A stretch of DNA of 64,000 bases from Mytilus galloprovincialis. Taxonomy: Eukaryota; Mollusca; Bivalvia; Mytilida; Mytilidae. The notes beneath the pieces were generated by a model. It was not told the origin of the DNA and ran no database searches. It worked only from the letters and a program-made list of their open reading frames with translations. The stretch is taken from contig NC_134845.1 in assembly GCF_965363235.1 (NCBI RefSeq), forward strand, positions 20,276,524 through 20,340,523, given 5' to 3'. The position numbers and the translations under genes were made by a program. This document shows positions 3,186-58,917 of the stretch, piece by piece; position 1 is the stretch's first letter, and each line of letters starts with the position of its first letter.

Positions 3186-3375
3186 CATTTTCATTTTTCA
3201 TTCTAATTGGCGATGTGACATACACATTGAAAATATTTGTATGTTTGGTACTTCCACAATCATTTGGGAACGAATCGATATCATGCCGTTTTATTTTTCG
3301 ACATTTTCCATCACATTGCTTTGGTGACAAACCATTTTTTTCCGGGATTTTACCCAAACACAAACACATATTATT
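3186..3375 (-). CDS. Gene 1 exon 4, WSC domain second half
   Basis: The exon is 190 nt and starts in phase 0 after TTGTAG. It encodes NNMCLCLGKIPEKNG, CDGKC and DCGSTKHTNIFNVY, the usual cysteine spacing of the second half of a WSC domain. It ends in phase 1 at G|GTACGT. Confidence 0.85.
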
Positions 3376-6300
3376 CTACAATAAGAGAGGATAAATATAA
3401 GGTGGGTCATTATTATATTTTTGTTAGTTATTAAGTTACGACTATACATTTCGATAGAACAATTTGTTTATTGTCGTCATTGACACGAAGTAGAAAACTT
3501 TTATTTTAAAAAAAAACATGCAAATATTGGCATTCATTTAATAGTAATTAACAGTTCTGTTATGAAAAACATTTATGTAGTGACAATTACCTGGATGGAA
3601 AATGCAAACACATTGACCGGTAAACAACTTTCTTGGCATAATCCTAATGAAGGCGTTGGCAAAGGAAGCCTACGCCGTATGCCTGAATTATCCTTCAAGT
3701 AGTTCAAACTGTAACATCCTTTAAAAAAAGTAATGAAATGAAAAAAAAATAATTGTTTGCTGTTGTCGTAAGAGATGAATATTTCATGCAATTTCCGTAT
3801 GAAAAGTCTTCACAATCCGAAGGTAAACCTTATTTAAATTGTTACGATTCTTGAGAAACAAACTAAAGAAAGGCATATCAAACTCATTTGTGCGAACAAT
3901 AGTGTTCTTTTCCGAAGCTTGTCTTTATGAATATTTACTGTTTAATATATTTATTGTTATGTCAATTTGACGTGGCTCGATACTTCTCTTCCCGTCATTG
4001 AGTTGTTTTGTTATAGTGAATTTTCGTAATCTTGTATTTCGTTTTTGCTGGTGTGATGTGCCTTTGTTGGGTTTCTTTGTTGACATATTTGATGGTTTTT
4101 TTTATTAAGATTATAACACAATGTAGACTACTGTACCTCATTTTTTACATTTTTACCTTTTATGTCTGTAGGTTTTTTTTCATACAACTAAGAGGTTTAG
4201 CTAGCTTAAAAACCAGGTTTTATCCACCGTTTTCTACATTAGAAAATTTGTATACCTAGTCAGGAGTATGATAGTTGTTATCCATTCTTTTGAGGTGTTT
4301 TAGATTTTGATTTTGCCATTTGATTAGAAACATTTGGTTTGAATTTTCCTTAGAGTTCGGTATTTTTATTTTTTTACTTTTCAAATATTTTGATCGTTAA
4401 TGTATATAAAAAGAATATAACATTACCTATAATATGTATCCAGGGAGACAACCTCTGATATTCTCCTGTCCAGTACTTCCCGCGAACATATTGTGATTGT
4501 CCTTGAATTAAGGAACTGTTTCTTTCACTACAAAACAATTGTGCGTCCATCCATGTCAGCTTAGATTCAGATGTAAATTCACTTACTCCTAATAGTAGAA
4601 AATAATAAGCAATGTAAATAACCATTTGTCATCCATTGTTAACTATTTATACATGTTGTGTTGACTTCGACAGACATGATTCATTCAAAGACATTGATAA
4701 TCCATGAATAAGACAGACGTGTGTATCAATTGTTAATTGGTGTGGTTTTTATTTATTTTAAGTAGATTTGTTACGATAATCTCTTCAAAACACAATTTTT
4801 GTATACAGTAAAAGCAGGTTTCATCAAATTGTTTTTAATTGATGTTAATAGCACTGATTTTAGTCTTATCTTATGCAGAAATACTTGATTACATAACTTT
4901 AAATTAAATGTACGAGGTGTTTTATCCATTATTACATTTTCAATTCGTTGCTGTTTCCATTGGAACGTCGTCCATTTCATGCATTTTGAAAGCCTCGAAA
5001 ACATGTGACATGTCAGTTATTTAACTGGAATTAATTCATTTCAAAATTTGTAAGAAAATGATACTTTGACGTATTATCCCATATACGAGAATTGACATGA
5101 AACGATATTTGTTAAACCTATTTATCTTATGGTCAACATTTCCATTTTGTTGAATTAGAAATCCCGCGAATCGTTGATCTAGTCTTTTAACATACCGGTA
5201 TGACATCATATTTTTTCCGGCGTCAAACTTTAACATCAGGCATTTTAAAACATTTCGCAGGCTTCAAAGTGTAATAAAAAATTGACAAAATGATAACTTT
5301 TAGGTGCAAGGTGTGAGGGTTGTGAATATTATTGAAGAAATCACATTGGCTCGTTTCCAAGGACGAAATGTAAATCGTCATAACCTATGAAATCTATCAG
5401 TGACCTATAGAATATCCAATGGAAATGTCGTAATATCGTCTCACGACACTAACAAGCCAATCAAATTTTCATATCACGTTTTCGTTTAACACTCCGTACA
5501 GTATGATCCTATACATATCTCTTCATGCAAAAAAATTGATAACAGGCCGCAGCCTTAAGAGAAAACACTGTTAACCTTAAACAAATTGAGGTTTGAAGTT
5601 TTTTTTTTTATATAATTAGACTGTTTCCTTTGTCACGGTGGCTATTTTTAAAATTTCATTGCCACCATCTTGAAAATATTAAACCCCCAATGCATATCTC
5701 CACAGGGGAGTGCACATTATGGTGAGTGTTATCAAATGTTTTTCAAGTCATCTTCGAGAAATAAGTTGGACAAAAATGTTCAAAATGTATAATCGAAGAA
5801 TATACATCCCCTTACCAAGGACATACAAAATATATTGCTTCTATCATGTGTTACCTCCAAACACAATATAATGGTCAGGTAGCGCCAAGGACTTAAAAAG
5901 CTGATAAAAGTTAATCAGAAATCTTTAATTGATATTTATAGCGGTTTATAAAGTGGATGTTAACAGGTTTAACGTTTTGTGTTATGGGAATTAAATGTAT
6001 TTGCTTTCTTGAATATAATGAGGTCGTCCAGTTTGAATTGCTCACGGATTCCATATTTTTAAATAATCGGTCATCAATTAACTGTAAGTATCTCTACAAC
6101 ACGATTGTTTGCCGACCCATATAAAATGGGAGTCAAATGTTAAATCACTTAAATATACTTTTTTATAAAGAACATAAAGTTGTACCCAACAATTGTCATC
6201 ACCTGATGGCATCATCTTACTATTCTTGTATTCCCTTTCTACATGTATGTTCAGAAAGTAAATAAATTTATTCATATGTCAAAAATGCACTAGAGATGCA

Positions 6301-6752
6301 AATACTATGATGACCTTTAATTCCGTAGACTTAAAGTTCAGACTCAAAGAAGCAAGCAAACCAGTGAGTGACGGTACTGATATTTGTTTTGTCTTCATAA
6401 TCACTGTAACATAATACTAAAGGGCACATGAAATTGCTAAATATATGTCTTTCTTTTTAACATTTTTAAAAGACTTGGAGATATTAGGAGACAAGCCGAA
6501 TTGATTATTTACAATAAACATAAACTTTGAATTCCTATGTTTTTAAGATGATAAGTTATAGACAAATAGTGATTGTTTTGGTTTTTTTAAACCTGGATAA
6601 TTTTACCATCAACACAAATTTTAATGTTTCTTTGAAAATCAACACACGTAATCAAATCATTGTTTTTTAGCATGATAAAGTTTTAATCAATGTGAGTACT
6701 CACCTTGTTTAGCAATTAAAAGTATACAAATGCATATTTGAAAACTTCCCAT
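3186..6752 (-). CDS. Gene 1: WSC-domain type I membrane protein, 5' part
   Basis: This is the copy A paralogue of gene 2. Four exons are visible: 6704-6752, 4427-4588, 3591-3718 and 3186-3375. Their intron phases agree (1, 1, 0, 1). They encode about 176 residues: a signal peptide, a half C-type-lectin-like segment with TWMDAQLFC and YWTGEY, and a complete WSC domain that starts at IIGCY and ends at CGSTKHTNIFNVY. In gene 2 the next exon lies 4.0 kb further downstream, so here it would fall left of base 1. WSC domains are known carbohydrate-binding modules, so extracellular glycan recognition is plausible but inferred. Intron 2 holds a fragment of a retroelement tail (3960-4330). All four exons are open, so nothing visible marks this as a pseudogene. 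Confidence 0.8.
3591..3718 (-). CDS. Gene 1 exon 3, WSC domain first half
   Basis: The exon is 128 nt. It opens with the Gly-Cys-Tyr that starts WSC domains (the Gly is split across the intron) and contains LGLCQESC and FAFSIQ, which fit the WSC pattern of C-x3-C followed by an aromatic strand. The donor is CAG|GTAATT. The copy B exon at 37509-37636 has the same length. Confidence 0.85.
3960..4330 (+). mobile_element. Retroelement 3'-tail fragment (family R1)
   Basis: The stretch carries GAGGTTTAGCTAGCTTAAAA, 'AACCAGGTTTTATCCACCG' and a run related to 'TACCTAGTCAGGAGTATGA'. Relatives occur at 37880-38242 (same strand) and at 27337-27850 and 43790-44690 (opposite strand). At 44690-44975 the tail directly follows a reverse-transcriptase-associated fragment, which links the family to a retroelement. 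It is a short old fragment lying in an intron of gene 1. Confidence 0.55.
4427..4588 (-). CDS. Gene 1 exon 2, half C-type-lectin-like segment
   Basis: The exon is 162 nt long and runs from phase 1 to phase 1. It encodes TWMDAQLFC near the start and YWTGEYQRLSPWIHII at the end, a pattern like the N-terminal half of a C-type lectin fold running into a WSC domain. The acceptor is TTTTCTACTATTAG. The frame stays open through the polypyrimidine tract to an ATG at 4625 (MVIYIAYYFLLLG), which offers a possible alternative N-terminus. Confidence 0.8.
4640..6690. other. Intron 1 of gene 1, no gene seen
   Basis: The sequence lies between the signal-peptide exon and exon 2 and aligns with 40905-42830 in copy B. 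It has about 310 bases (4769-5080) that are missing or replaced in copy B, and it lacks the 75-bp module inserted in copy B at 42048-42122. The TATAATG at 6014-6020 is the empty site of that insertion. No exon was found. Confidence 0.6.
6704..6752 (-). CDS. Gene 1 exon 1, signal peptide
   Basis: The coding part reads MGSFQICICILLIAKQ and then one base, ending at a strong donor (G|GTGAGT). The same exon is conserved in copy B (42835-42883) with only two residue changes. The leftover base G joins the GA that opens exon 2 to make Gly. A TATATAAA lies about 25 bp upstream of the ATG. That is very close if this ATG is used, so the start site is uncertain. Confidence 0.65.
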
Positions 6753-26856: not shown

Positions 26857-27067
26857 TCAATAAGATCTATTTTTGAACAAATTTACGACTGTTACAACAG
26901 ACGATACATCTGAGAAATTATCTTGACTGTTTGGTGTGTCATTCCAAAAGCTTAGTTTGCTGGTGATAATTGCCTTTAGACTGTGAATGCTTCTAGGACT
27001 ATTTGTATATTGTGAGGCATGGCTGGTACTGGCGCTGTCTTTATCTGTTTTCATCCCTTTTCGTCGC
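26857..27067 (-). CDS. Gene 2 exon 8, cytoplasmic tail
   Basis: After the acceptor TAATTTTCAG the exon completes the split Arg codon left by exon 7 and encodes RRKGMKTDKDSASTSHASQ. It ends in NLFKNRSY and TGA. The basic cluster directly after the membrane span is a typical stop-transfer signal. The tail is rich in Ser, Asn and Thr. No ITAM or ITIM motif is seen. Confidence 0.75.
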
Positions 27068-30000
27068 CTGAAAATTAGTGTGATGAATTACTCATTATAT
27101 TCATGCGTAACAAATATTTTAGTTACGGAAGTATTGGCAAATATGATAAATGGGCCATTGTCAATACCAAAGGTGGTTTCGTTGGACGATTGATCTAAGT
27201 AGTTCAACTACAGTATCGTTAGTATGTCAACACAGAGTTTGATAGCTGTGCTGCACCTCAAACCGTAGTTGTATGGCCGAATTTAAAAGGTACGTTTCGG
27301 GTTCTTCGCCAATAAAAACTAATTGAAACGAGATTAGTGCCGACCGTGGCTTTGAACAACAGTCAATTAATGAATAATTTAATCAATTGTCAATATCATG
27401 TTGACTATCATTTTAATAGCTATGAATCGAAACAACATATAAAAAGTAAAATTATAAAGATACTGAACTTTAAGGAAAATTCAAAACGGAAAGCCCTTTA
27501 TCAAAAGATCAAACACATCAAAGGAATGGATAACAACTTTCGCATACCTGACATGGTACAGGCATATGTTAAAAATGACGGATTAAACCTGGTTTTATAG
27601 CTAGCTAAACCTTTCACGTGTATGACAGTCGCATCCAATTACACTATATTGACAACGATGTGTGAACAAAACAAACACATGTAATACGTAAAAATGTCAA
27701 AAATAGTGGTCAGGATCGTGTAATAATCTTAACCACTGTAAAACAAACAAATATGTTACAAAAATGCACTAAAATGCATAGAGACAAAGCACTTACATTA
27801 GAAAAAAATAAAGACAAGAATACAAACTTACCATAGAACAATAACACAATGCCGAGATGTATAAGTATTTATTTTATATCCTATACATTTCTCGGAATGT
27901 GATTAGTTAAAAGCGTCCTTGTGGAGACCGTGTATATTTGATATTAGGTTAGTAGGGAGGCGGGGCTTATCTCATACACGGTTAGTAGTGGTGTTACGTC
28001 CCTTTATATTCCATATAAGGTAGTAAGCAGGCGGGGCTTATTTCATTCACGGTTAGTAGTGGTGTTACGTCCCTTTATTAAAACAAAACTACTGATGATT
28101 AAGATTGAAATAAATCAATTAAAAACATTTAAACCTAACAAGTTGCTATTGTTTGTTGGTATCTGATTTTGTAAGATCAGTGGAAGTAGTTTCTTAATGC
28201 TAACAGTATTGAAGACTTGCTCATTTAGATAGGTCTAAATTTTGCACGCTAAGATAGTCGGTAAGATAAATTCGTTACATAGTGTGCTAGTGACCTACTA
28301 CGGTATATATGGGATCAGTAAATTCCATATGATCCCATATACACCGTATTAGGTCACTAGCACACTATGTAGCTAATAATATTCTTCGTTCCTCTATTAA
28401 AATTGATTTGTTTTATTTTACATTTTCCTAATGTTAATTGGTTGGGGTTTTTTTGGAGAGGGGGGGGGGGTATGTGACTGACCAAAATGTGTATAGAATA
28501 GTTGAAACAAATTCATCACGAGTTTTATCATTGACGTAAATTAATGAATTGCTAGAAGGATACACATAATACCTGGTGTAGCATACTGCTAACGTTACCA
28601 AGCTTATGACAATAAAACATCCGATTAGAGGAAGGATAATTACTATGGTGTTAGTCTTGGTATCTGAAAATAATATAGAAATTGTAAATAAAAAAGAATA
28701 TATTGTGCAGTAGAAATCTATATTAATACACAATTATTCGTTAATCGTTGTCCTTAAATGTAAATGATAAACACATACTAGAATTTCAGTTACTACCAGT
28801 TTAAAAAGCAATTTATATTCAAATTCATAAATTATTGTTTTAGCTTGTCGTTCGACATACAAACTTAGGTTCGATAGGATATCAAAATGTTGTTTGAAAA
28901 CGTGTATAGTGACTTGAATTCAGAAGTTAACTCATAGCCAAAGCTAAATTTTAAGACACAGACGTGTATTAATCTGTAAAATACCTGCTGTTTTCATTGT
29001 TGTTGTTCTTCGGTTTGCATGTTTTGTCGACTTTTATATTATTTGTTTGTGCGTTCCATTTGTGTTTTTGTTGTATTGCTCTCATGTAGTGTAATCATAT
29101 AAGCGAATGTTTTTAACATTGTCATAAAAGATGGAGGTTTGACTATATAAAACCAGTTTCAACTCATCATTTTTTTTTTCTAAAAATGTCCTTTTTCAAG
29201 TCAGGAATATAGCAGTTGTTACCAAAAAGATCGATTATATGTATGTTGGCGTTTGTTTTTGTGGCAGCTTAGTCTTCCTGTTATTCCTTTGTTTTCGTCT
29301 TTAAATTGATGTGTTTCTCTGGGTTTCAGTTTGTGACCCGGATTTGTTTACTCCCAAATCGATTAATGACTTTTGAACAGCGGTATACTTTATTTATGCA
29401 TCTAGTTCTAGCAACCTTCCTTACAGTAGCATACGTTTATATACAACAAGGGTTTATAAACACTCCTACCATCTTTGGTGGGTTTTGGTTGACGCTGATC
29501 ACTGCTACATACAGCCAATAGTTGTTCATTCTGATTATCACAATCAGACGTCAAATAACAACGTGACCCGTGACACTTCTTACACTGAATTACCGACTTG
29601 GTGTCAACAGATATTCCTGTCACAGATTGAAAAGAATAATCATGTTATTCGTCTGGGTTTTTTATTCAATATTGTGAAAATGAACAAAAGGTACATGCAT
29701 ATTTGTATCAAAAATTTGAATCATCCAAATTATATATCATTATACGACTAAAGGTTAGCCTTATGAAATGATGAGTTAAACTTACTTGTTTTTTTTTTTT
29801 TTTTTTTTATTACTATTATTTTATGCTTCAACCACCTTAATACCACTCACCTTGAATATGATTAGATAATATGTCTACAATCATTTGACAAAGAGCAAAG
29901 CCCATACCGCATAGTCATCCATAAAAGGCCCCGATAAGACAATATAAAACAATTCAAACGAGAAAACTAACGGCCTTATTTATATGAAAAAAATGAACGA

Positions 30001-33000
30001 AAAACAAATATGTAATACATAAACAAAAGACAACCACTGAACTACATATTGTACAGGCTCCTGACTGACTTGGGACAGACACATACATAAATAATTTGGC
30101 GTTTGGTTAAACATGTTAGCGGAATCCCAACTCACCCCCTAACCTGGGACAGTGGTATAACAGTACAACATAAGTTTTTATTTGGAATTTGATCGATTTT
30201 CCCATTGTCCATCCCGTTTTTCAAATATTTTCTTAAATAAGTAATTTTATTGTGTTTTTTTTTAATATACTGGGTGATTTGTTTTGACTAACAAGGCTAT
30301 TTTGTGCTTAGCTTAGTTGACCCCTTTTCTAGGCCAAGCTATTGTATTATGTTATATATTATGTAATATGTTATTATAGTGTCTATGTATTTCATTCATT
30401 ATTATCGTGTTGTACAGATGTATAATATATATTTTGTATTTTGATATGAAAGATTTTGTAACAAATAAGTAAAAATTCTGAAATTTACTTTCTAGGTTCT
30501 CCGTTCATATATACATTGCACATACGATATAAAAAAAAACTACTAGTCGGATTCTGACACTTACAACATATCAGATGGTTTGTTACGGTTGTAGGAAGAT
30601 TGCATAAATATTTATATTTCAATTGTTCTTCAATAGATCTAGTTATTATGACAGAAGTGCCATCATCAGGGGTGCAACCGTCAATTTTATGTTAAAGTCT
30701 TTAATTTTGATCTATTAAGCATTCTAGTATCTTCTATACTCTTATGTTGGATATACGCCACTATTAGTTCTGTATTGAATAATTTGAAAATGGACGTCGT
30801 ACTAAATGTCAAATCATCTATACTATTAAACGAGAAGACCTCATTTTTGGTGTCGCTTTTCTTATTTCCACAATAAATTAATCAACACGACTCTGTGTCC
30901 TATATATACAGTGCATAGTCGCATTTGTCATCCATTCATATGAATATTCAGATTGAGTTATTTTGGGAGAAAAACGAGAAAAAAGGCATCCGGATATTGT
31001 CTCGTCATTGGACGAAATTTTAAGTCAGATTATACTTCCGGTTTGCGTTTTTCTGTATACTTTGAACAAACAAATAGTACGAATAAAGTGTATTTTAATT
31101 CTGTTCAGAGTTTATTAAATGGAGAGGGTCTGTATACTATGTCAATTGACCACCATGGATCGATTACTAAACTAAGAATTGAAAGTGAATACACTTTATT
31201 TATATAGTAATATACAGATAAGCGCTAAAATCATTCATGTGAACTTTTGATACCTTTTCTGAAATTCTCCTTTCATTAAATATTTTACAAAATTCATTGA
31301 TTACAAAAAAATGATGTGGTATGATTGCCATGTTGAGACAACTCTCCACAAGAGACCAAAATGACACAGACATTTACGACTATAGGTCACCGTACGGCCT
31401 TCTACAACGAGCAAAGCCCATACCGCATACTCAGCTTTAAAAGGCCCCGAAATGACGATGTAAAAAAATTCAAACGAGAAAACTAGCGGCCTTATTTATG
31501 TACAAAAAAGGAACGAAAAACAAATATGTAACACACAAACAAACGACAACCACTGAACTACAGGCTCCTTACTTAAATGTTCATAACATACTAAATGTAT
31601 GTTCATATTGAAATTGATAGAAAACCAAAAATTGGGAATTTTGGAAATGAAGGAGAAGGTATACAACTTCTAACAACACTTTACATACTTTTTAACTCCG
31701 CTCTGAATGCCCGCGATTTCGCGGGTGTGTTCTAGTATAATTAAACTAAAGAGTTGATATCACACAAAAAAAAAATAGAACTAGGATTGGTCGTAAGTCA
31801 TGAACAATTCAGTATACTTAGTAAGTTTTTTTGTGAAACCGACTCCAGTTCGTTTACATAATTGTTTTTTTTTAAATCGTGTCAATATATTCCGATAAGA
31901 TTGTAAGATGATAGTCTTACTTTTTGTTTTGCAACTCAAAAATAGGCCTAAAAAATACGACTATTTGAAATGATATCAATACCTAACCCATTAAGGTGAA
32001 GCATTTAACTTCTTAATGTACTGTTTAGTAATACTATCAATCATATCCTTAATTGGACAGGCATGTTGTCTACAAAATAAGTTTTCAGCATGCCACATTT
32101 GGTATGAAAAAGCTTATTTTAGACATTATTTTGTTCTCTTCTTGAATTTGTATGAAATATTCCTCACTAGACGTACCATCATACAAATAATTCAAAAAAC
32201 AATTCCAATGGTCCATCATGCAATTCAAAAACCATTAACTGGTATTCAATGCAAATATTAACAATAATAGAGGCGGTAATTAGCAAAACAGAATTTGTAG
32301 CGGAAAGGCCGATTTAAGTGCCATATAAAAAAAAGTAAATTAAACAACGGAAATTCCAAAACTGACAGATGGCAAATTCAAAATCTCACACACATTTGAC
32401 AGATGGAAAATAACAGTCATATTTCTGACTTTGTACTAGCAATTCCTTATGAAGACAATGGTGGATGGAAATTGTAGTTTGTAAATTATTGGTTTATATA
32501 GGGGGCATGTTATGGCATCTACCTAAAACTAAAGCTCCAGTTGTGGTAAGCAACCATCCGTCTCAGTAAATCAAGTCGTACGGTAACCTATAGTTGTTTA
32601 TTTCTGTGTCATTTGGTCTCTTGTGGAGAGTTGTCTCATAGGCAATCATACCACATTTTCTTTTTTTACATTTGTCAGATAGCTATTCTTCTGCATTTAA
32701 TAATCCTATCAATTGCTATTTTGTTTTATTGTTATTCGTTTTAATTGTTTGATATGTTATTGAAAAACCAAAGATTTAAATGTGTGCAACCACGCAAATA
32801 AGTAAACTCGAAGTAAAGCAAATTTTCATCGGTATTTTAAGGTACCTGTAACTGATTGTAAATAAATTAATACCTGTGTCTGATGATAGATAAATTTGTC
32901 TTGCTACACCAATCCAATGCCAGAGGCTGGTTTTCCCTTTAAATGTAGATCTATTGATCATTTTCTCGGCTTCTATTATAGTAGAAATGTTTCCATACAG

Positions 33001-36000
33001 GTAAGAGTCCATATCTCTTTTGCATCTATCAAGTGAATCGCTCCATGTGCCATATTCTTTTAATTTGACGAATTCATTCTTGTCTTCTTAAAAAAGATAA
33101 ACATTTTTTATCATTATACTAATTATAAGTTTTAGCGTTCTTGCTTACTAAAATTCTAATTAGTATAAATGTAATCATAGTTCAGTATAATGTCAAAAGT
33201 GTTTCACCTATTTAAAATTTCCCCAATATTTTTAAATAAAAACAAAACACTCACGTTTTGTCCAAATGTTGCATTGGAAAAAAGTCGCAATCAAAGCAGG
33301 AATGTATGTGGACTGCGTGCAATCCTATCGAGTACGTGCATGAATCTGTTGGATCTTTTATATTTCAAAATTAAGAATTTGTAAATACAAATTGGAGTAG
33401 TCGTTTGTAATATAATAAAATTTTATTATTTTGAGTTCTTAAAAAACAAATGTCGTTAGAAATTATCGTCAATAGTACAGCTTCTGTACGGTATCTAGTT
33501 AGTTATCAAAGGTACCCGGATTATAATTCAGTACGCCAGGCGCGCGTTTCAAGCAATACAATAACAAAGTTGAAGAGCATTGAGGATCCAAAATTCCAAA
33601 AAATTGTTCCAGATACGGCTAAGCTTATCTATGCCTGTGATAAGAAAATCCTGAGTTTTTCGAAAAATTCAAAGTTTTTGTAAACAGGATATTTATAAAA
33701 ATGACCACAGTATTAATATCCATGGAGTGTTGAATACTTGGCTGGTAATATCCTCGGGGACGAAACGTCCATCAGCAGTGGCATCGACCCAGTAATGTAA
33801 ATAGTCAAAGGTACCAGGATTATAGTTTAATTATAAAATGACTTAGTGCACGTGACATGTATGGCGTATTTTCTGTGTTGATTATTTTCATTGAATGTTA
33901 GTACTTTCCATTTGATAAAAAGATATTTGTCAGTCCTAAGAACTGCAATGAACCTTATGAACAACTGCTGACTTGTCTGTACAATGTATTTCATTTCTCA
34001 TAATCAGTTACTGTACCATGACTTCCTCGGTCTGCGATGCACGCAATCCAGGTGATCTGAATTGTACTACCACTAATAAATTGTGAAACATGTTAAACAT
34101 ATTATTTGTAAACTGATCAACAATTTATCGACCAGCAATGTTATCGAAATTGAAAAAGAGTTTTACTATTTACACTTAGTACACACACTCCAATATACTC
34201 CCGAATAAAGATAAAATTAAATTAAATACAAAGTGTTGTGTTCAAAATGAACAATCTTCATGGAATGAATTATTCATAAACATTTTTTGGCGACGATGTG
34301 TAAGCTTGTATAATGATATGATAGGAATATATGTTATCGATAAAGAAATTAAGGCAACAGTAGTTAATGATCTATCCTTGTGAAGATACATTCACAATCG
34401 ATTAGGCGAAAACGAATCCGAGTATAATAAGAAAACCAAAACCGAGGGAAACATATCATAGAATACATACTTTTCTCTTGACAAATTCCTCCATGTAAAA
34501 CGTTATCACAATTCATAGGAATAAACTCGTATTTGTCAGGAGAGTCGGTAGTCCATAGGAAAACACATAATTTACTTTTTATGTAGTTACCTAAAACAGT
34601 AAGGTGTTCGTCGTTAATAAATTCAAGGCTGACACACTGCTCAAATTTTCAGTTTGTAACACAATATAACAAGATAAGAAGCGTTGATGTATGCTATTCG
34701 TTAAATTTAACTTTAAAAATTAAGTTTAACATGTAAATCACCTTTTACATTAAAACCAATAAGTTCTCTTCTAATCTGAAGTCATACAATGTAATGAGTA
34801 TTTCCAAGACAGTGTCGATTATATTGGAAATACATAGCAACAATATATCGTTCCTTATATTTCAAAGTCAATGTTCAATATAATGAAAACAATAACTTAT
34901 CGTAGATTTGATAATAAGGGACAGTATTTAGGTAGCAATACACAGTTAAGAAAAAGTACCTAAAATTGACACACCCTTTTCACCACCCTATTTGCTTGCA
35001 AATAGATAAGGCTTTATATTTGTGTTATGCATGTGTTATATATATGGAAAAAGCATCTTCCATACATTTTGATTTCCAATAGATAAAATGGTGAAATATA
35101 ATTTCTTTTTGGTGTAGACATGGCAACAATCTGCATTTATTCAATACACGATAGTGCATAAAGTGGGTAAAAATGTCAAACAGTTTCGTCCAATTGAGAA
35201 TTTCAAGTCATTAGAGTGATAAAATTCCTGACACCTTAGACATGTATCTATTGAGAGACCCAAACGAATCATACGTTGCTGCTCCCTTTTTTCATCAAAT
35301 TGAATTGAAAAAATCGAGGGCTAAATCTTTTTGAAAAACACTACAAGAATTTCTGGACCTTCGGACATGAACATGTGGACAATCAAATAGAAAAATGTCA
35401 TAATCAACACGAACAAACAATATTGATGTTCATGTAAACTCACTTGGAAGGCTATATTACTCTTGAACTATCAAGAATTAAAGTCATATGAAACATCAAA
35501 TTAAAAAACAATATACATATGGGTTTTTTATAACAAAATGAATAGTTGTCATTATTAAACATATGAACATATACTTTTTTCTGAAGAAAATTCTTTAATT
35601 TGTCCACATTTAGAAGAAGTCTACTTTTTTTAATTGCTTGCTTCCAGGAAGCAATTCGTCGACATATTTTTCGTATGCAAAGTGACCTTAGCGTGAACCT
35701 TCTCGTAAAAGTCCGGTGATCGCAGTACGCATGGGTCTGTCATTTTAATAAACTATTATCTGATTGTACATGTTAAACATGTGCTCCTATTCATACTTTT
35801 TTGTTGATTGTTTACTATAAGGTGACAACCGGTAAACCTCAGAATCAAAACACGGCATTTAATGAGCTGCCATATTTGTTAAACCATAACAGACAGAGAG
35901 AATAAAATTGACGATTATACGATATATTAGCGTAAAAAATTATAAAATCGTGCACAGAGGACCAAGTTTATGATAAATGCATGCATTGGTTCAAGAATTG

Positions 36001-39000
36001 GATAAACATAATTTTCCAATAGTCACTTGTTTCATATGACCTTCAATTTTATTGGACAAAGACTTTCATATTTCAAAAATCTTTTTAATAAACTTCTGTG
36101 TTCTAGCTGGAATGAGCAAATTGGCCTGCTAGTTTTGAAAATTTGTTCATAATAAACATTGTATGAAAGGTTCATCAGTAAGATACAAAATTATTAATCT
36201 TTATTTGACATGTGGTAGTGAAACTGAAATTATAATCTTGCTCGTTATACAAATTATCACGAATCAATGCGCTGGTAACTTTTTTCAATATTGATGTTTG
36301 GAAGGAGGAATACATTTCCTAAAACTGTAAAAGTCCTGTACTGAAGACTGAGTCAATGGAAGCAAATGATGGTAGGTACCAACTCTATTTTTTTTTTCAT
36401 AAAAGCTGTCAGGGGAAACTTTCCTTAACCCTCTTATCCAAAACTTTACAGAGCAAATCTCTTACATACCCCTTTACCAACCCTTATTGTGGTCTATGAT
36501 AGTGATAGTAAGTTTTTTTGCCCAGGTGATCTCAATTGACGAATAATTTGGATTCAGGCTTGCATGCGTAGTCACTTCCATAACCATGCATGCGAGTTTT
36601 GGTTTAAATAAAGACCATCATTTACAAAAGAAACTATATATAATTCGTCTTGATATCGTCGCAACAGTGTTAGATCTGTAAATTCTACAATTTTGTACTT
36701 CCCTGGCCAGGAATCGAACTCATGTTACTGATATATCGTGGCACCAAATCGCCTTGCACTATGGCCGACTCGCCAATCACAATAAAAAAACACATGTATA
36801 ATTCGACTTGACATCAGCCCAACAATGTTTAATCTGTAAATTTGCAGAAGCAAATTGTTTTGTTCTTCCGTGGCCGGGACTCGCACTGATGCTAATGAGA
36901 TATCGTGGCATCAAATCCTCTGCACTATGACCGACGCGCTCGACCACCAAGGTTCTACAATAATAAAGCTTTCAATGCCCGGGTGGTACCTTTCCTCGTC
37001 AGGTATAATCTAGCATCGTAACACAATAATACATGATATGTTATATATATATATAAATTAAACAGCTTAATGCCAACTGCTAGAAAATAAAACATAACAC
37101 CTGAATTATCTGTACGTACCATAGTCATTTTTCATTCTAATTGGCGATGTGGCATACACATTGAAAATATTTGTATGTTTTGTACTTCCACAATCATTTG
37201 GGAACGAATCGATATCATGCTGTTTTATTTCTCGACATTTTCCATCACATTTCTTTGGTGACAAACCATTTTTTTCCGGGATTTTACCCAAACACAAACA
37301 CATATTATTCTACAATAAGAGAGGATTAATATAATGTGTGTCATTATTATATTAGTTATTAAGTTACGACTATACATTTCGATAGAACAATTTGTTTATT
37401 GTCGTCATTGACACGAAGTAGAAAACTTTTATTATTTTTTAAACTTGCAAATATGGGCAATAATTTAATAGTTATTATTATGAAAAACATTCGTGTAGTG
37501 ACAATTACCTGGATGGAAAATGCAAACACATTGACCGGCAAACAACTTTCTTGGCATAATCCTAAACAAGGCGCCGCCAAAGGGAGTCTACGCCGTATGT
37601 CTGTATTATCCTCCAAGTAGTTCAAACTGTAACATCCTTTGAAAAAACGATTCATGAAATGAAAAAAATATCTGTTTGCTGTTGTCGTAAGAGATAAAGA
37701 TTTCATGCAATGTCCGTATGAAAAGTCTACACAATCCTATATTAAACCTTATTCAATTTGTTACGATTCTTGGAAAACAAACTAAAGAATGGCATACCAA
37801 ACTCATTTGTGCGAACAATAGTGTTCTTTTCCTTGTCTTAATGAATATTACTTTAGTGTTTAATATATTTTGTGTTTTGCTATAGTGAATTTTCGTATTC
37901 TTGTCTTTCGTTTTTGCTGGTGTGATGTGCCTTTTTGGGGTTTCTTTGTTGACATATTTGGGTTTTGTTTTCATTAAGATTATAACACAATGTAGACTAC
38001 TGTACCCCATTTTTTTACATTTTTACCTTTTATGTCTGTAGTTTTTGTTCACACATTGTTGTACATATAATGACATTTCATGCGCCTGGTATACAACTAA
38101 GAGGTTTAGCTAGCTTAAAAACCAGGTTTTATCCACCGTTTTTTACATTACAAAATGTCTATACCTAGTCATGAGTATGACAGTTGTTATTCCTTCATTC
38201 GTTTGATGTGTTTTAGATTTTGATTTTGCCATTTGATTAGGACAGACCTGATTTTGATGTAAAAAAAAAAAAAAGCTGAAATATAATTATATTGAGACAG
38301 ACTGGGTCGCGAAGCGACCCAAACCACCTCGCGCAGCGAGGTGGCCTTCACGGTCGGGGGTCTGGGGGCCGCTTAAGGCCCCCAGAAAATTTTGGGATAA
38401 ATGGTGCAAAATTATGCAATCTGGGCTATTCCTGGCACTTAAATTTAGTTTTAAAAAACATTGTTTTTATATAAGATTTTTCCCCATTTTTCAAAAAAAC
38501 GTTCAATATGATATAACTTCTATCATTTTTAGATTTTAAGAAGAGAAAAAACATACTTTCTCAATTGCTGACAACTTCTGATAATAAATAGGAAAAGGAA
38601 ATAATTAATATTTAATAAGGGTAAACATTTATGGTGTATAAATAATTTATAATGGCAATTTCATTTCCATAATTCATTGATTTCAGTGTCAATAGTGTCC
38701 TTTTGTCTTTTGAGAAGCTGAGGTAATGTGTCCGAATCTTGCTCTTTTGGCTGCTTTTTCAATCAATTCTTTTGCTTTTCTCTTGGAAACTGTTTTTTCC
38801 TGCGATTTGATTTGTAAGTTTGCTTTTTTTCCTCATTGATTAATTTCTTTTTGAGCAGTTCTTCCTTGTACTGCTTACAAGCAGTTTTCATATTTTTACA
38901 CAGGTGAGGATCTATCTTTTCATGTAATACATCTTTTTTCTTGTAGTACTCTACAGCTGTTTTCTCAGTTGCTTTCAAACTGTATTTTGTATTCTGAATA

Positions 39001-42000
39001 GCATTGTATGTTGAAATGTTATGACGTTGCATGAATCCATTAAGATTGATGTCAAGTTTTTCCATGGTATGTCATTTTTTTCAAATACATCCACAACTTT
39101 TGTATACAGAGCTTCACTGTTCACAGTAACACATGTCAGGGAAGATAAATGCCTGACCACTACTTTGTTTGAGATTTTACAGAAATAACTAGCAAGTATA
39201 GTTAGCACCTTTTGATAGTTAGAACTTGTGCTTTCATCCATATTCAAGGAAAAGCAACCTGTCTTCAAACATCTTATAAGATCTTCTTCAAAAGTTTTTC
39301 CAACGCCAAAACGGGTCTTATATGAAGCAGTGGTTCTGTTCATAGTGATGGAGTCCAAAGCCTTTTTATCATCAGATAAAGTTTTTGCCAATTCAAGCAT
39401 TTTTGGCACAAGGGAAAAAGATAGAGAGTTTTCGGAAGTAAATGCCACTACCATAAATTCCATATTTGTTACCCTATCCTGAAATGATGTAAGTGAAGCT
39501 GGTGCAGGTTGTTTTAGTTCTGCAGATGACTTGAACATTGGATGTAATCCATATATACCTTGGTGAGTATCTAATTTTGCTCCAAATGCACCTAAAAATA
39601 AAACAAGTTAAGTATTACAACAACAAGTCAATCTAGTTAAAAGAGACTTGAGATGCATTTTGACAAAATGTCTGACTACAGCATTAAAATGTTTTTATAT
39701 TGTAGATTAAGTGGTAATTATTGCTTTTGTCAGGTTGGGACATTTAAGGGATATCCCTCTTTAGGGATTGTTCCCAACCTGTGTGTTGGTGTTTATCCCT
39801 TTGACTTATACATCATTTGAAGAAATATTTGCAGAAAAAACTAAGTCCAGACCTACAAAAAATTTGGGCATAGTAGCCCCTAGAAATTAAGAATTTATAC
39901 CCCCCTATCCCCAATTTCCCAGGCCTTAAAGTTTGGTCAAAGAAAGAAAAGCAAAGAGAGTAGGACAGTTCTCCTTATCCTAAAAGAACATACCCCATTG
40001 CTTAAAAGATAGATACACAACATTTAGACAAATAAATAAAGAAATTTCAACGTACCAGACAGGCTGTGGTTTGTTTTTCTCATTTTCAAATTGTCCAGGT
40101 GAAGTTTTTTGGTTAAGTGTTGCTCCAAACGTCTCCAGCCTCTTCCAGCGTAATTGATGTCTTTTTGACATAACTCACATCTGGCAATTCCTCTTGAGTT
40201 AATTTTCCTAATAAACTGGCCTACTGGGTTGCCATAAACCGAACGTTCAACCCAATCCCATTTCCAACAGTTTTTGACACCTTTGTCAACTTCCAAATTG
40301 TATGAGTCCCTCTGAAGTACAACCTTTCATCTTGACTTTGAAATCTCGACCAATCACGTTCGTCCTTTTATTAAAACATAGCTATGGCCAATCAAAAATG
40401 AGCTTATTTCCGCTTTTGGAAGTTTTTTTTATATAATTTTTATCGGATTCGGAGAAGAGCGGAAAATTATCCGGTTTTGCCGTGATAAATAAAAAAACGG
40501 AATTCAAAGCAAGAAATCGGAAAGAAGTCGAGCGGAAAGCGGAATTCCGCTAAAAAACGGAAGAAAATCAGGTCTGTTAGGAACATGATGGACTTTTCGT
40601 TTTGAATTTTCCTTTGAGTTCGGTATTTTTGTTTTTTTACTTTTTCAAATATTATGATCGTTAATGTATTTAAAAAAATATAACATGTACCTATAATATG
40701 CATCCAGCGAGACAACCTCTCATATTCTCCTGTCCAGTACTTCCCGCGAACATATTGTGATTGTCCTCGTATTAGGAAACTGTTTCTTTTACTACAATAC
40801 AATTGTGCGTCCATCCATGTCAGCTTAGATTCTGATGTAAATTCACTAAGTCCTAATAGTAGAAAATAATAAGCAATGTTAATAACCATTTGTAATTCAT
40901 TGTTAACTATTTAGACATGTTGTGTTGACTTCGAAAGAAATGATTCATTTTATTCAAAGACATAAATAATCCATGAATTAGACAGACGTGTGTATCAATT
41001 GTTACTTGGTATAGTTTTTATTTATTTTAAGTAGATTTGTTACGATAAGGTTTAATTTAATTACGAGAATTGACATGAAGCGATATCAAATTCTAACAAT
41101 TTGTTAAACCTATTTATATAATGGCCAACATTTCATTTGTGTTGAAAAAGAAATCCCGCGAATCGTTGATCTAGTCTTTTAACATACCGGTATGACGTCA
41201 TATTTTTTTCCGGCGTCAAACTATAACATTAGGCATTTTAAAACATTTCGTAGGCTTCAAAGTGTAATAAAATTTGACAAAATGATAACTTTAAGGTGAA
41301 AAGTGTAAGGGTCGTGAATATTATTGAAGAAATCACATTCGCTCGTTTCAAAGGACGAAATGTAAATCGTCATAACCTATGAAAGCTATCAGTGACCTAT
41401 CGAATATCCAATGGAAATGTCGAAATATCGTCTCATGACGATGATTAAGCCAATCAAATTTTCATATCACTTTTTCGTATAATACTCCGTACAGTATGAT
41501 CTAATAAATATATCTGCATGCAAGAAATAGATAACAGGCCACAACTATAAGAGAAAACACTTTTAACCTTAAACAAATTGAGGTTTGAAGGGTTATTATT
41601 TTTTTTATCTTATTGGACTATTTCCTTTGTGACGGTGACTATTTTAAAAATTTTAATGACTAGTTATATTTGTTGAAAATTTCATTGCCACCATCTCGAA
41701 AATGTCAAACCTCTAATGCACATCTCCACAGGGTAATGCACATTATGGTGAGTGTTATCAAATGTTTTTCAAGTCATCTTCGAGAATTTGGACAAAAATG
41801 TTCAAAATGTATAATCGAAGAATATACCTCCCCTAACCAAGAACATGCAAAATATATTGCTTCTATCATGTGTTATCTCCAAACACAATATAATGGTCAG
41901 TTACCGCCAAGGACTTAAAAAGGTGATAAAAGTTAATTAGAAATCTTTCATTGATATTTATGAGGGTTTACAAAGTGGATATTAACACGTTTAACGTTTT

Positions 42001-42883
42001 ATGTTATGTTATGGGAATTAAATGTATTTGCTTACTTGAATATAATGTCGCTGATGAGTTGTGAAGACGAAACGCGCGTCTGGCGTCTTTAATTATAATC
42101 CTGGTACCTTTGATAACTATTTTATAATGAGTTCGACCAGGTTGAATTGCTCACATATTCCATATTTTTAAATAATCGGTCATCAATTAGCTAAGTATCT
42201 CTACAACACGATTGTTTGCCGAACCATATAAAATGAGAGTCAAATGTTAAGTCACTTTAATATGCTTTTTTGTAAAGACCATAAAGTTGTACCCAACAAT
42301 TGCCATCACCTGATGGCATCATCTTACTATTCCTGTATTCCCTTTCTATTTTCAGAAAGTACATAAATTTACTCATATTTCAAAAATGCACTAGAGATGC
42401 AAATATTATGATGACCTTTAATTCCGTAGACTTAAAGTTGAGACTTAAAAGACTAACGTATGCGAATCAAAGAGGCAAGCAAACCAGTGAGTGACGGTAC
42501 TGATATTTGCTTTGTGTTCATAATCACTGTAACAAAATGATTACTCGTTAGGGCACACAAAATTGCTAAATATATGTCTTTCTTTTAACGTTTCTAAAAG
42601 ACTTGGAGATATTAGGAGACAAGCCGAATTGATTATTTACAATAAACATAAACCTTAAATTCCTATAATTTCTATGTTTTTAAGATGACAAGTAATAGAC
42701 AAATAGTGATGGTTTTTTTTTCAAAAAAAACCTGGATTATTTTACCATAAACACAAATTTTATGGTTTCTCTGATAATCAACACACGTAATTGTTTTTTA
42801 GCATGATAAAGTTTTAATCAATGTGAGTACTCACCTTCTTTAGCAGTTAAAAGTATACAAATGCATATTTGAAAACTTCCCAT
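26857..42883 (-). CDS. Gene 2: half-CTLD/WSC/half-CTLD type I membrane protein (complete)
   Basis: Eight exons join in frame: 42835-42883, 40691-40852, 37509-37636, 37120-37309, 32874-33086, 29470-29616, 28573-28663 and 26857-27067. All have GT/AG borders and matching phases (1,1,0,1,1,1,2). They total 1191 nt, or 396 residues. In order: signal peptide (1 to about 18), half C-type-lectin-like segment (about 24-70), WSC domain (71 to about 170), second half C-type-lectin-like segment (about 177-247), Cys-rich stalk (about 248-296), transmembrane helix (about 302-325), and a cytoplasmic tail of 70 residues that begins RRRKGMK. WSC domains bind glycans in other proteins, so a surface receptor or adhesion role is a reasonable inference. 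No catalytic or signalling domain is visible. A hAT-like element, a Helitron and several repeats sit in its introns. Confidence 0.85.
27337..27850 (-). mobile_element. Retroelement 3'-tail fragment (R1)
   Basis: The stretch carries GATTAAACCTGGTTTTATAG followed by CTAGCTAAACC, the R1 words in opposite orientation to 3960-4330. An 87-codon frame on the plus strand (27337-27600) runs across it. The same region at 43801-43980 is similar in sequence, so the frame belongs to the repeat and not to a host gene. It lies in intron 7 of gene 2. Confidence 0.6.
27958..28080 (+). repeat. Tandem repeat, two units of 71 bp
   Basis: GGCGGGGCTTATCTCATACA at 27959 and GGCGGGGCTTATTTCATTCA at 28030 each lead into ACGGTTAGTAGTGGTGTTAC and GTCCCTTTAT. 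The units are almost identical and more GC-rich than the surroundings. They lie in intron 7 of gene 2. Confidence 0.85.
28276..28371. repeat. Near-perfect palindrome, 42-nt arms
   Basis: Arms 28276-28317 and 28330-28371 are reverse complements with two mismatches and a 12-nt loop. The left arm begins TACATAGTGTGCTAGTGACC and ends in GGGATCA. It lies about 200 bp downstream of the transmembrane exon of gene 2. It may be a compact fold-back element. Confidence 0.85.
28573..28663 (-). CDS. Gene 2 exon 7, transmembrane helix
   Basis: The exon is 91 nt, with acceptor ATTATTTTCAG and donor CAG|GTATTA. It encodes TIVIILPLIGCFIVISLVTL and AVCYT, an uninterrupted hydrophobic span of about 24 residues. 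Phase in is 1 and phase out is 2, the same as the gene 3 exon at 53472-53568. Confidence 0.85.
29080..29400 (+). repeat. R2/R1-related repeat fragment
   Basis: The stretch contains ATGGAGGTTTGACTATATAA, 'AAAACCAGTTTCAACTCATC' and TTTTGAACAGCGGTATAC, the R2 order with R1-like spelling. It lies between exons 6 and 7 of gene 2. Confidence 0.6.
29470..29616 (-). CDS. Gene 2 exon 6, Cys-rich stalk
   Basis: The exon is 147 nt, phase 1 to phase 1. It encodes a compact Cys cluster, IQCKKCHGSRCYLTSDC, followed by LLAVC and a Lys/Pro-rich linker before the membrane span. The gene 3 exon at 58008-58144 has the same cysteine order (VQCNLC..C..C..FAVC), which supports both as coding. Confidence 0.85.
29888..30178 (+). 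repeat. R3 repeat, 5'-truncated
   Basis: The copy starts at GAGCAAAGCCCATACCGCAT and runs through ACTAACGGCCTTATTTATAT to AACAGTACAACATAAG. It lies in intron 5 of gene 2. Confidence 0.75.
30953..31207 (+). CDS. Unidentified 84-codon frame inside the Helitron
   Basis: The frame encodes a basic start (GRKTRKKASGYC) and then a soluble-looking stretch ending in LRIESEYTLFI. I do not recognise it. It could be captured sequence, part of an ancestral element protein, or chance. No promoter or splice context supports it as a gene. Confidence 0.2.
   Translation: MSYFGRKTRKKASGYCLVIGRNFKSDYTSGLRFSVYFEQTNSTNKVYFNSVQSLLNGEGLYTMSIDHHGSITKLRIESEYTLFI
31304..31580 (+). repeat. R3 repeat nested in the Helitron
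   Basis: The copy starts AAATGATGTGGTATGATTGC and continues with GGTCACCGTACGGCCTTCTA and GAAAACTAGCGGCCTTATTT. It stops abruptly after CTACAGGCTCCTTACTT. Confidence 0.75.
32578..32668 (-). repeat. R3 repeat, short inverted fragment
   Basis: The stretch contains TGTCATTTGGTCTCTTGTGG and AGTTGTCTCATAGGCAATCA, then CATACCACATTTTC. It is the reverse complement of the R3 head. Confidence 0.75.
32874..33086 (-). CDS. Gene 2 exon 5, second half C-type-lectin-like segment
   Basis: The exon is 213 nt, phase 1 to phase 1, and follows the WSC exons. It encodes GTWSDSLDRC, SYLYGNIST and WHWIGVARQIYL, the order of the N-terminal half of a C-type-lectin-like fold. The C-terminal half with its second disulphide is not seen. 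The gene 3 exon at 58720-58917 is a clear relative (SYLYGNIT and KWLGAARQFYL). Confidence 0.85.
33487..33840 (+). repeat. Composite repeat at the duplication junction
   Basis: The stretch contains a GGTACCCGGATTATAATTCA head, the module word CAGGCGCGCGTTTC, TTGAAGAGCATTGAGGATCC, then GTGTTGAATACTTGGCTGG and CGGGGACGAAACGTCC. The same order is present at 60715-61170. Base 33731 is where similarity to base 1 of the window begins, so this repeat spans the visible junction of copies A and B. Confidence 0.75.
36690..37020 (-). repeat. tRNA-like SINE units (copy B)
   Basis: This is the counterpart of 2757-3090. On the minus strand it contains GTGGTCGAGCGCGTCGGTCA and AGTGCGAGTCCCGGCCACGG around the core 'GATTTGATGCCACGATATC'. 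The A-box-like and B-box-like words are clearer here than in copy A. Confidence 0.5.
37120..37309 (-). CDS. Gene 2 exon 4, WSC domain second half
   Basis: The exon is 190 nt, phase 0 to phase 1. It encodes NNMCLCLGKIPEKNG, CDGKC and DCGSTKHTNIFNVY, as in gene 1. It joins exon 5 with a split Glu codon. Confidence 0.85.
37509..37636 (-). CDS. Gene 2 exon 3, WSC domain first half
   Basis: The exon is 128 nt, phase 1 to phase 0. It encodes (G)CYSLNYLEDN, LGLCQESC and FAFSIQ. The changes from gene 1 are scattered and keep the cysteines. One additional Cys appears (APCLGLC, where gene 1 has TPSLGLC). Confidence 0.85.
37880..38242 (+). mobile_element. Retroelement 3'-tail fragment (R1), split by hAT insertion
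   Basis: This is the counterpart of 3960-4330, with GAGGTTTAGCTAGCTTAAAA and 'ACCAGGTTTTATCCACCG'. Sequence similar to copy A resumes after the hAT-like element at 40577. It is an old fragment in intron 2 of gene 2. Confidence 0.6.
38304..38385. repeat. Three consecutive GC-rich hairpins in the hAT-like element
   Basis: GGGTCGC-GAA-GCGACCC (38304-38320), CCACCTCGC-GCA-GCGAGGTGG (38324-38344), and CTGGGGGCC (38362-38370) pairing with GGCCCCCAG (38377-38385). All stems are perfect. They may be subterminal transposase-binding or structural sites. Their sequence composition is unlike the rest of the window. Confidence 0.9.
38763..39591 (-). CDS. hAT-like transposase, middle part (exon 2, degraded end)
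   Basis: After the acceptor TTTATTTTTAG the frame encodes AFGAKLDTHQGIYG, FTSENSLSFSLVPKMLELAK, CFSLNMDESTS and a region ending in TSILMDSCNV. This matches the pattern of hAT-like catalytic cores, with an acidic residue in NMDES. The frame then stops at 38975. A Lys-rich stretch in another frame (38763-39000, with YYKKKDVLHEKIDPHLCKN) may be a displaced C-terminal part. Compared with full transposases of this type, a large segment is missing. Confidence 0.6.
40056..40296 (-). CDS. hAT-like transposase exon 1, BED-type zinc finger
   Basis: The exon encodes WKWDWVERS, then ARCELCQKDINYAGRGW and LEQHLTKKLH. This Cys-x2-Cys...His-x4-5-His arrangement is that of BED fingers that bind transposon ends. 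It ends in phase 1 at a TCTG|GTACGT donor and joins 39591 in frame. Confidence 0.7.
40691..40852 (-). CDS. Gene 2 exon 2, half C-type-lectin-like segment
   Basis: The exon is 162 nt, as in gene 1. It encodes TWMDAQLYC and YWTGEYERLSRWMHII and joins the WSC exon at the Gly of GCY. The open frame again extends upstream through the acceptor tract to an ATG at 40889 (MVINIAYYFLLLG), a possible alternative start. Confidence 0.8.
42048..42122 (+). mobile_element. 75-bp insertion of the GACGAAACGCGCGTC module
   Basis: Copy A at 6014-6022 reads TATAATGAG without interruption. Copy B reads TATAATG (42041-42047), then 75 bp, then TATAATG (42123-42129) and AG. The inserted unit has CGCTGATGAG, AGACGAAACGCGCGTCTGGC and CCTGGTACCTTTGATAACTA. 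The word GACGAAACGCGCGTC is itself partly palindromic. The same module appears in many places in the window, so this is a direct view of one insertion event. Its mechanism is not known to me. Confidence 0.8.
42835..42883 (-). CDS. Gene 2 exon 1, signal peptide
   Basis: The exon encodes MGSFQICICILLTAKE plus one base, ending at G|GTGAGT. It matches the gene 1 exon with two residue changes. It provides the hydrophobic leader for secretion. A TATATAAA lies about 25 bp upstream of the ATG. Confidence 0.65.
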
Positions 42884-48703: not shown

Positions 48704-49265
48704 CAAAAAAAAAGATGTCTTATGATTGTCAATGAAACAACTCTCCACAGGAGACTAAAATGACACAGAAATTAACAGTTATAGGTCACTGTATGGTCTT
48801 CAAAAATGAACAAAGCCCATCCCTGCATAGTCAGCTATAAAAGGCCCCGAAATGACAATGTAAAACAATTCAAACGAGAAAACTAACGGCCTTATGTACG
48901 TTCAATAAACGAACAAAAACAAATATGTTACACATTAACAAACGACAACCACTGAATAACAGGCTCCTGACTTGGGACAGGCACATACATACAGAATGTG
49001 GCGGGGTTAAACATGCTAGTGGTATCCGAACTCTCCCCTTAGCAGGGACAGTGTTATAACAGTACAACTTAAGAACGATCTATATAAAACATTTGGAAAA
49101 GTCTTAACTCATCAGATGGACAATGATACATGAGGACGTGGCCGGGTACTTGTACATCTCAACAATAAAAAGACAATAGGTACATATCTGAGAGTACTCA
49201 CAGTTAACTGACAGCTTGTTCAAAGCCATTAACAACTAATACAAATATCAAGCATATCAGAATAA
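48704..49265 (+). repeat. R3 dispersed repeat (copy B)
   Basis: This is the counterpart of 10513-11085, starting GATGTCTTATGATTGTCAAT and running through GGCTCCTGACTTGGGACAGG to the 'CTGACAGCTTGTTC' end. A short variant follows at 49300-49420. Confidence 0.8.
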
Positions 49266-53073: not shown

Positions 53074-53149
53074 TTACAAATGACTACTAGAACATGGTGA
53101 TGAATCATTAACACTGCTTCCAGTCTCTTTGTTTTCCTTTTTTCTTCTA
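53074..53149 (-). CDS. Gene 3 last exon, short cytoplasmic tail
   Basis: After the acceptor TTCTTTTTTGTAG the exon completes a split Ser codon and encodes RRKKENKETGSSVNDSSPCS and SSHL, then TAA. The basic run after the membrane span is a stop-transfer signal. The tail is about 25 residues, much shorter than the 70 residues of gene 2 and of unrelated sequence. Copy A has a matching exon (14928-15000). Confidence 0.8.
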
Positions 53150-53471: not shown

Positions 53472-53568
53472 CTGACACACCAGACTGTTAACACAATTAT
53501 AATAATTGCACATCCGAAGAGAGAAGGGGGAATAACTTCTAAGAGTAATGCATTGTCAATTGCACTTC
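53472..53568 (-). CDS. Gene 3 transmembrane exon
   Basis: The exon is 97 nt with acceptor ATATTTCAG and donor CAG|GTAATT. It encodes SAIDNALLLEVIPPSLFGCA and IIIIVLTVWCV, one membrane span. Phases in (1) and out (2) match gene 2 exon 7. In copy A this exon has been largely replaced by a repeat. Confidence 0.8.
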
Positions 53569-58007: not shown

Positions 58008-58144
58008 CTGAAAATTATCCTTATTTTCCTTGCAAACGGCAAACGCAATACTTTTCCGATCATCACATCCAATAGTATAATCACATGTAGAATCTTTACT
58101 ACAGAGATTGCATTGCACAATCTCACTTGGATTAACGTCTTGGC
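58008..58144 (-). CDS. Gene 3 Cys-rich stalk exon
   Basis: The acceptor is TTTTTATATAG. The exon encodes IVQCNLCSKDSTCDYTIGC and FAVCKENK, with the cysteine order of gene 2 exon 6. The donor CAG|GTGATT leaves phase 0, whereas the transmembrane exon at 53472-53568 needs phase 1. Either an extra exon lies between them, another donor is used, or the gene is damaged. The frame also stays open past the donor into the adjoining retroelement sequence for about 100 codons. Confidence 0.7.
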
Positions 58145-58719: not shown

Positions 58720-58917
58720 CCCTATCCACTGTCAGATAGAATTGACGAGCTGCACCTAACCACTTCATTTTTTCCCAATCAATCACATCATACCGCTTCC
58801 TTATATGTTTAGCCTGATTAGTGGATGTTATATTGCCGTACAGATAACTTTTTCTGTTTCTACCAATTTCAACAGTGGCTTCCCAGGAAGTCTCGCAATG
58901 AGAAGTATACATGTTTC
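58720..58917 (-). CDS. Gene 3 second half C-type-lectin-like exon
   Basis: The exon is 198 nt, phase 1 to phase 1. It encodes SWEATVEIG, SYLYGNITSTNQA and MKWLGAARQFYLTVDRG, clearly related to gene 2 exon 5. The cysteine found in gene 2 (SDSLDRC) is replaced by Ile here, although another Cys lies just upstream (SHCETSW). The WSC exons expected next upstream are not found up to 64000. Confidence 0.75.

Follow-up and report, generated by a model that had tools for sequence, protein, structure and literature searches.

Calcium-dependent sugar-binding C-type lectins carry EPN or QPD together with WND in their binding loop. EPN and WND are also named as C-type lectin motifs in a 2025 review, whose main text, as far as accessible, leaves WSC unmentioned (PMC12842671). 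WSC domains are described in proteins that bind glucans and also in Kremen, a receptor whose partners are proteins (accessible part of PMC9024836), and bivalve-unique architectures with a C-type lectin domain include WSC, termed carbohydrate-binding in the text sections of PMC10140915. The combination of a C-type-lectin-like domain (CTLD) and WSC in bivalves is already known; a WSC domain nested in a CTLD was not found described in the literature searched, figures and most subscription papers being beyond reach. Here, we analysed a 64,000-nt stretch of the Mytilus galloprovincialis genome (1.38 Gb), referred to as the window (contig NC_134845.1, here C8; C8:20276524-20340523), and in it a gene, gene A, that probably encodes a receptor in which a WSC exon cassette was shuffled into a first CTLD (CTLD1), followed by a second (CTLD2), a membrane span and a tail. 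A 'WSC domain-containing protein 2' is listed in the accessible part of mussel gill RNA work (PMC4581086), an entry not linked to gene A.

Gene A lies on the minus strand, with its ATG at 42883 and its stop codon at 26857, and comprises nine exons whose borders are all GT/AG and whose phases agree along a frame of 1311 nt (436 amino acids). The exons are given below with the basis of each assignment, in part a comparison of six rebuilt modules (A, B, C, D, E and F) of a tandem family on C8.

42835..42883, minus strand: E1, short exon with the start codon, hydrophobic and resembling a signal peptide, MGSFQICICILLTAKE; DNA 96% identical in paralogue B
40691..40852, minus strand: E2, N-terminal half of CTLD1 (TWMDAQLYC...YWTG...RWMHIIG), phase 1/1; gene model, six-module comparison, profile match
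37509..37636, minus strand: E3, first half of WSC, phase 1/0; gene model, Pfam, phases as in ordinary WSC exons
37120..37309, minus strand: E4, second half of WSC (CLC, CDGKC, DCGS, IFNVY), phase 0/1; gene model, Pfam, phases
34471..34590, minus strand: E5, proposed C-terminal half of CTLD1 (LCV...NC...GICQ), 120 nt, phase 1/1; found in all six modules, CTLD identity putative
32874..33086, minus strand: E6, N-terminal half of CTLD2 (TWSDSLDRC...WHWIG), phase 1/1; spanned by the Lectin_C matches of modules D, E and F
29470..29616, minus strand: E7, proposed C-terminal half of CTLD2, phase 1/1; the Lectin_C match of module F extends into it
28573..28663, minus strand: E8, membrane-span exon TNTIVIILPLIGCFIVISLVTLAVCY; read from sequence, paralogue B 97% identical over 29 amino acids
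26857..27067, minus strand: E9, RRRKGMK, cytoplasmic tail and stop codon; tail exon of gene EF 47% identical in amino acids

An earlier note on this DNA had proposed a gene over the same span with GT/AG borders and matching phases, all of which could be rebuilt from the sequence, together with eight exons and a frame of 1191 nt, which had to be revised. When single-exon omissions were computed for all nine exons, leaving out E5 gave exactly 1191 nt, so that E5 is most likely the exon missing from the earlier model, an identification by length arithmetic, as that model came with no exon list. The hydrophobic E1, the span in E8 and the RRRKGMK behind it predict a type I single-pass membrane protein; the note's proposal of a single-pass protein whose lectin-like segments flank a WSC-type domain is supported.

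Several lines of evidence indicate that gene A is very probably a real membrane-receptor gene and a member of a tandem family. With gene A as query, all 33 matches (E up to 0.01) fell within C8:20.231-20.357 Mb, all on the minus strand, and with modules F and E as queries (E up to 1) all but one each of 28 and 31 matches lay inside this cluster. Modules, the borders of which were chosen by eye and then checked by script, share the order E2-E7, GT/AG borders and identical internal phases in six of six cases, including a counterpart of E5 between E4 and E6 with phases 1/1. A and B are complete nine-exon genes of one module each, B having an intact 1311-nt frame with exon lengths as in gene A. 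D+C and E+F are module pairs with junctions agreeing in phase (0/0) and are read as two genes, DC and EF, of two modules each. Silent divergence (dS, synonymous substitutions per site) is similar for D-E (0.96) and C-F (0.87), as expected if one two-module gene had been duplicated whole.

The WSC-type domain is encoded by E3 and E4. When isolated regions were scanned singly against Pfam WSC (PF01822, curated cut-off 27.8 bits), five of the six modules matched at 22.3-25.6 bits (E 1.4e-5 to 1.5e-4); scans of whole modules gave a WSC match in three of six. Across the six aligned modules no WSC cysteine varies: all eight are kept, spaced C-x3-C, C-x-C and C-x3-C, and this pattern fits the disulphide scheme given for Wsc1 in the accessible part of PMC9024836. 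The CGG motif of WSC is replaced by CGS in all six modules. Alignment by hhalign of the family WSC to four WSC domains of the same genome gave probabilities of 45-55% (E 1.2e-4 to 2.3e-4), compared with 0.5% for the reversed family. Exon structure agrees as well: read by eye, two WSC cassettes elsewhere in the genome (L005, L006) have exon phases 1|0|1, like E3/E4 in every module, and their internal intron lies within about one residue of the E3/E4 intron. These two cassettes are hardly independent, being near-identical copies on two chromosomes, and WSC matches in single exons are also present in the genome (L001-L004). Profile searches of the PDB returned no WSC structure, the best matches being Muskelin (E 0.28) and, over the N-terminal half, CLEC10A (E 0.078).

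The surrounding segments, described in the earlier note as incomplete CTLDs with a separate Cys-rich stalk (here E7), are best interpreted as two whole CTLDs, each of which would fold as one domain: E2 with E5, between which the WSC cassette (E3 and E4) occupies a phase-1 intron, and E6 with E7. The proposed assignment of E5 and E7 as the C-terminal halves draws on their cysteines, position and intron phase. E2 and E6 each hold one cysteine in all six modules, and E5 of five modules and E7 of all six hold an odd number, so that the joined halves have even counts in five of six modules for CTLD1 and in six of six for CTLD2. In total, CTLD1 has exactly four cysteines in three of the six modules, and CTLD2 has four in one module and six in the other five. 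Against Lectin_C (PF00059, curated cut-off 22.6 bits), modules D (23.3 bits) and E (23.7 bits) scored above the cut-off and F (21.3 bits) below it; A, B and C gave no match. Compared with CTLDs of the same genome, the six-module E2+E5 profile matched over E2 only (hhalign probability 79%, E 1.6e-5), and the E6+E7 profile matched across both exons with a probability of 8%. On C13, one ordinary CTLD gene, read by eye, shows an exon with its phase-1 donor at WRWIDG|, which aligns with RWMHIIG| of E2. None of the six ectodomains contains EPN, QPD or WND; A and B carry WND in the tail only, and A additionally WSD near the start of CTLD2.

C12 harbors a second array repeating the architecture of the C8 receptors. 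One marginal match (E 0.066, module F or E as query) led to C12:55.21 Mb, where gene G comprises, in this order, CTLD-N, the first and second halves of a WSC-like domain, CTLD-C, CTLD2-N, CTLD2-C and a membrane span, with internal phases as in the C8 modules (with a provisional start for its first exon). With G as query, 25 matches (E up to 0.1), among them ten E2-like exons, all fell on C12:54.70-55.24 Mb (L062-L077). By open frames (borders unchecked), a further locus, H, shows the full exon set found in G, and in another, K, a WSC-like exon comes after E2; two more (L075 and L077, of which 2-3 kb each were read) hold one family exon apiece. About six of the eight cysteines remain in the WSC-like domains of G and H, for which Pfam gave no WSC match. 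When E2 and E5 of G and H were joined without the WSC part, Lectin_C aligned over positions 2-105 and 2-106 of its 107, respectively, at scores below the cut-off (13.0 and 15.4 bits, E 0.17 and 0.033); no Lectin_C match was found in any of eight controls (six with E5 shuffled, two with E2 alone).

Exon shuffling offers the simplest account of this nested architecture. A two-exon WSC cassette with phase-1 ends would have been shuffled into the phase-1 intron that splits the CTLD just after W-x-x-x-x-G. The resulting protein would start with a signal peptide, CTLD1 with a whole WSC domain replacing the long-loop region, and a compact CTLD2; a single membrane span would then lead to a tail of ~70 residues. 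With the cassette at the long-loop intron, WSC would project where a classical C-type lectin has its sugar site, with the CTLD pair serving as a disulphide-stapled scaffold. As the ectodomains lack EPN, QPD and WND, sugar binding, if any, would fall to WSC, the presented binding face, whose ligands would most likely be glycans of microbes or food particles. Receptor clustering might then signal through the tail, and tandem duplication with divergence would yield a receptor repertoire. We give even chances to the full scenario, i.e. that a CTLD sugar-binding loop was replaced by a whole WSC domain through insertion into a phase-1 intron at the loop start, and that tandem expansion of the product, in two arrays or more (C8, C12), afterwards gave rise to a diversified set of surface receptors.

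A number of results weigh against this account. All WSC matches of the C8 family stay below the Pfam cut-off, and gene A itself matched neither WSC nor Lectin_C, so that the domain call needed the family comparison and WSC identity holds at family level only; the WSC profile search, set beforehand as the refuting test of the earlier note, thus came out negative for gene A alone and positive for five of six modules. Against a narrow profile of CTLD C-terminal halves, 23, 353, 434 and 778 of 1000 shuffles did as well as E5 of modules A-F (two modules without score), and 195 to 966 of 1000 did as well as E7. Adding E5 and E7 to E2 and E6 gave profile-profile scores no better than with shuffled columns (39 and 30 of 40 as good). 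Joined E2+E5 of A, C and E and joined E6+E7 of A, G and H gave no Lectin_C match, and module C has its E6 cysteine displaced and its last E5 cysteine lost. With G and H added to the C-half test, the number of shuffles as good per 2000 was 9 for E7 of H, 50 for E5 of E, 192 for E5 of H, 288 for E5 of G and 410 for E7 of G. That E5 and E7 of A-F are not recognisable by sequence as CTLD halves would also suit a protein of eight exons with two true half-CTLDs around the WSC domain, a separate Cys-rich stalk and no completed lectin fold, the more so as skipping of E5 preserves the frame (phase 1 to 1). We consider such a protein quite unlikely: E5 is open and bordered by GT/AG in six of six modules, its ratio of nonsynonymous to synonymous substitution rates (dN/dS) is 0.43-0.66 in five of six pairs (1.22 in C-F), its absence would leave one unpaired cysteine in E2, and joined halves of the C12 relatives give near-full-length, albeit sub-threshold, CTLD1 matches. 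Still less likely, in our judgement, is that the inserted domain is itself a PAN/Apple relative that has grown WSC-like. The cysteine losses and missing WSC matches of G and H, as well as CGS in place of CGG, would fit such an origin, whereas the WSC matches of five C8 modules, Pfam scans in which no PAN family was listed, and a cysteine spacing and exon phases that fit WSC speak against it.

Gene A, and B with it, might instead be a recent duplicate drifting towards a pseudogene. In line with this, A-B dN/dS is 0.88-1.06, a further point against the proposed receptor, substitutions are about as frequent in exons as outside them (7%), and the tail exon of the sister gene DC has early stops. 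With dN/dS near 1, the A-B pair is uninformative on constraint except for the absence of indels: both 1311-nt frames are intact and every splice border is kept, and no indel was found in 1311 coding bases vs. 18 indel events in 2776 aligned bases, nearly all of them non-coding (120 belong to E5). The Poisson expectation of zero indels in 1311 bases is ~2e-4. Of 15 module pairs compared, eight were saturated at silent sites, and in six divergent, non-saturated pairs (A-D, A-E, B-D, B-E, D-E and C-F) dN/dS was 0.30-0.45. We regard decay as unlikely. Positive selection between A and B was considered as well and found unsupported (Fisher p 0.88 for the whole, 0.21 for CTLD2, 0.69 for E5). A question of ligand rather than of structure is raised by the possibility, which we hold to be real if doubtful, that the nested protein exists as proposed but that the ligand of its WSC domain is a protein, as with the WSC-bearing receptor Kremen in Wnt signalling, so that the molecule would act as a co-receptor or in adhesion. 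The fold of WSC, PAN/Apple, is said in the accessible part of PMC9024836 to mediate both protein-protein and protein-carbohydrate contacts, and the canonical sugar motifs are absent from the ectodomain CTLDs; by argument only, two expanded tandem arrays suit varied ligands better than one fixed partner. A glycan-binding receptor with a WSC cassette nested in CTLD1 is the reading that we retain.

Paralogue B is located partly in the window:

6704..6752, minus strand: E1
4427..4588, minus strand: E2
3591..3718, minus strand: E3
3186..3375, minus strand: E4
720..839, minus strand: E5
C8:20275878-20270582, outside the window, minus strand: E6-E9

Paralogues B and A are carried by a long direct duplication (~1-16200 and 33750-54020, offset 34-38 kb), ~93% identical in the compared blocks. 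The E2-E3 intron of gene A contains a transposon-like insert absent from B (38243-40576), whose ends are inverted (CAGACCTGATTTT), with TTAGGA to either side (by eye). It encodes a BED zinc-finger piece scoring below the Pfam cut-off and is presumably hAT-like. The E8-E9 intron contains a near-perfect inverted repeat at 28276-28372 with arms of ~45 nt, resembling a miniature inverted-repeat transposable element (by eye).

Parts of gene DC were placed as follows:

58720..58917, minus strand: E6 of the second module (C)
58008..58144, minus strand: E7 of the second module (C), phase 0 end
53472..53568, minus strand: probable membrane-span exon E8, phase 1 start; borders by eye
53074..53149, minus strand: shortened tail exon E9, early stop; borders by eye

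Remnants of a longer tail, carrying more stops, lie downstream of the early stop. In modules C and F, a phase-0 end of E7 meets a phase-1 start of the likely E8 (C: 58008-58144 and 53472-53568; also L044, L045), so that a small exon may be missing from both models or another donor may be used; genes A and B are free of this gap.

Elsewhere in the genome, the lists comprise at least 129 WSC and at least 150 Lectin_C matches, with WSC clusters at C3:78.2-78.5, C5:70.9-71.0 and 82.1-82.2, C9:90.96 and C13:67.1-67.6 Mb. Among the matches listed, WSC and Lectin_C occur within 50 kb of each other only at C8:69.45-69.49 Mb (by eye), where the stretches read contain WSC exons of the ordinary type and one ordinary CTLD exon with WND. 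This pairing check misses diverged cases, since the C8 cluster and the C12 array are in neither list. The window further contains a dispersed repeat (10540-10780, 12052-12292, 29818-30058, 31334-31574, 48733-48973 and, inverted, 59825-59965), its copies 62-86% identical to the reference copy.

Beyond a corrected gene model and the placement of gene A in a family that has two-module members as well as a second array, the nested receptor, if confirmed, would represent a clear, datable case of a whole domain shuffled into the loop where an immune-type fold holds its ligand, would show a route to recognition diversity in invertebrates without antibodies, and would hint at a way in which new receptors for surface recognition may arise in a filter feeder. 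Its design poses a direct question, namely whether specificity is carried by the inserted module. Among described systems, human PKD1 (polycystin-1, discussed with sea urchin REJ in the accessible part of PMC1934368) likewise has a WSC and a C-type lectin domain; these proteins are very large and multi-domain, however, and the two domains are named there as distinct, with no nesting described. Bivalve CTLD+WSC proteins share the domain combination, the text of PMC10140915, figures aside, leaving order and nesting undescribed. Compared with canonical CTLDs (PF00059), the long-loop sugar/calcium motifs are absent, CTLD1 is split by WSC, and the C-terminal halves of A-F are unrecognisable by sequence alone, whereas TW-x-x-A-x2-x-C and W-x-G of the N-terminal half are retained and the phase-1 intron is placed as in one ordinary CTLD gene. 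The mussel domain differs from canonical WSC (PF01822; yeast Wsc1, human Kremen1) in its CGS instead of CGG, its sub-cut-off scores and its position between the halves of another domain, but it shares the eight cysteines in C-x3-C, C-x-C and C-x3-C arrangement, GCY near the start and VY near the end, and, with two other WSC genes of this genome, the two-exon cassette.

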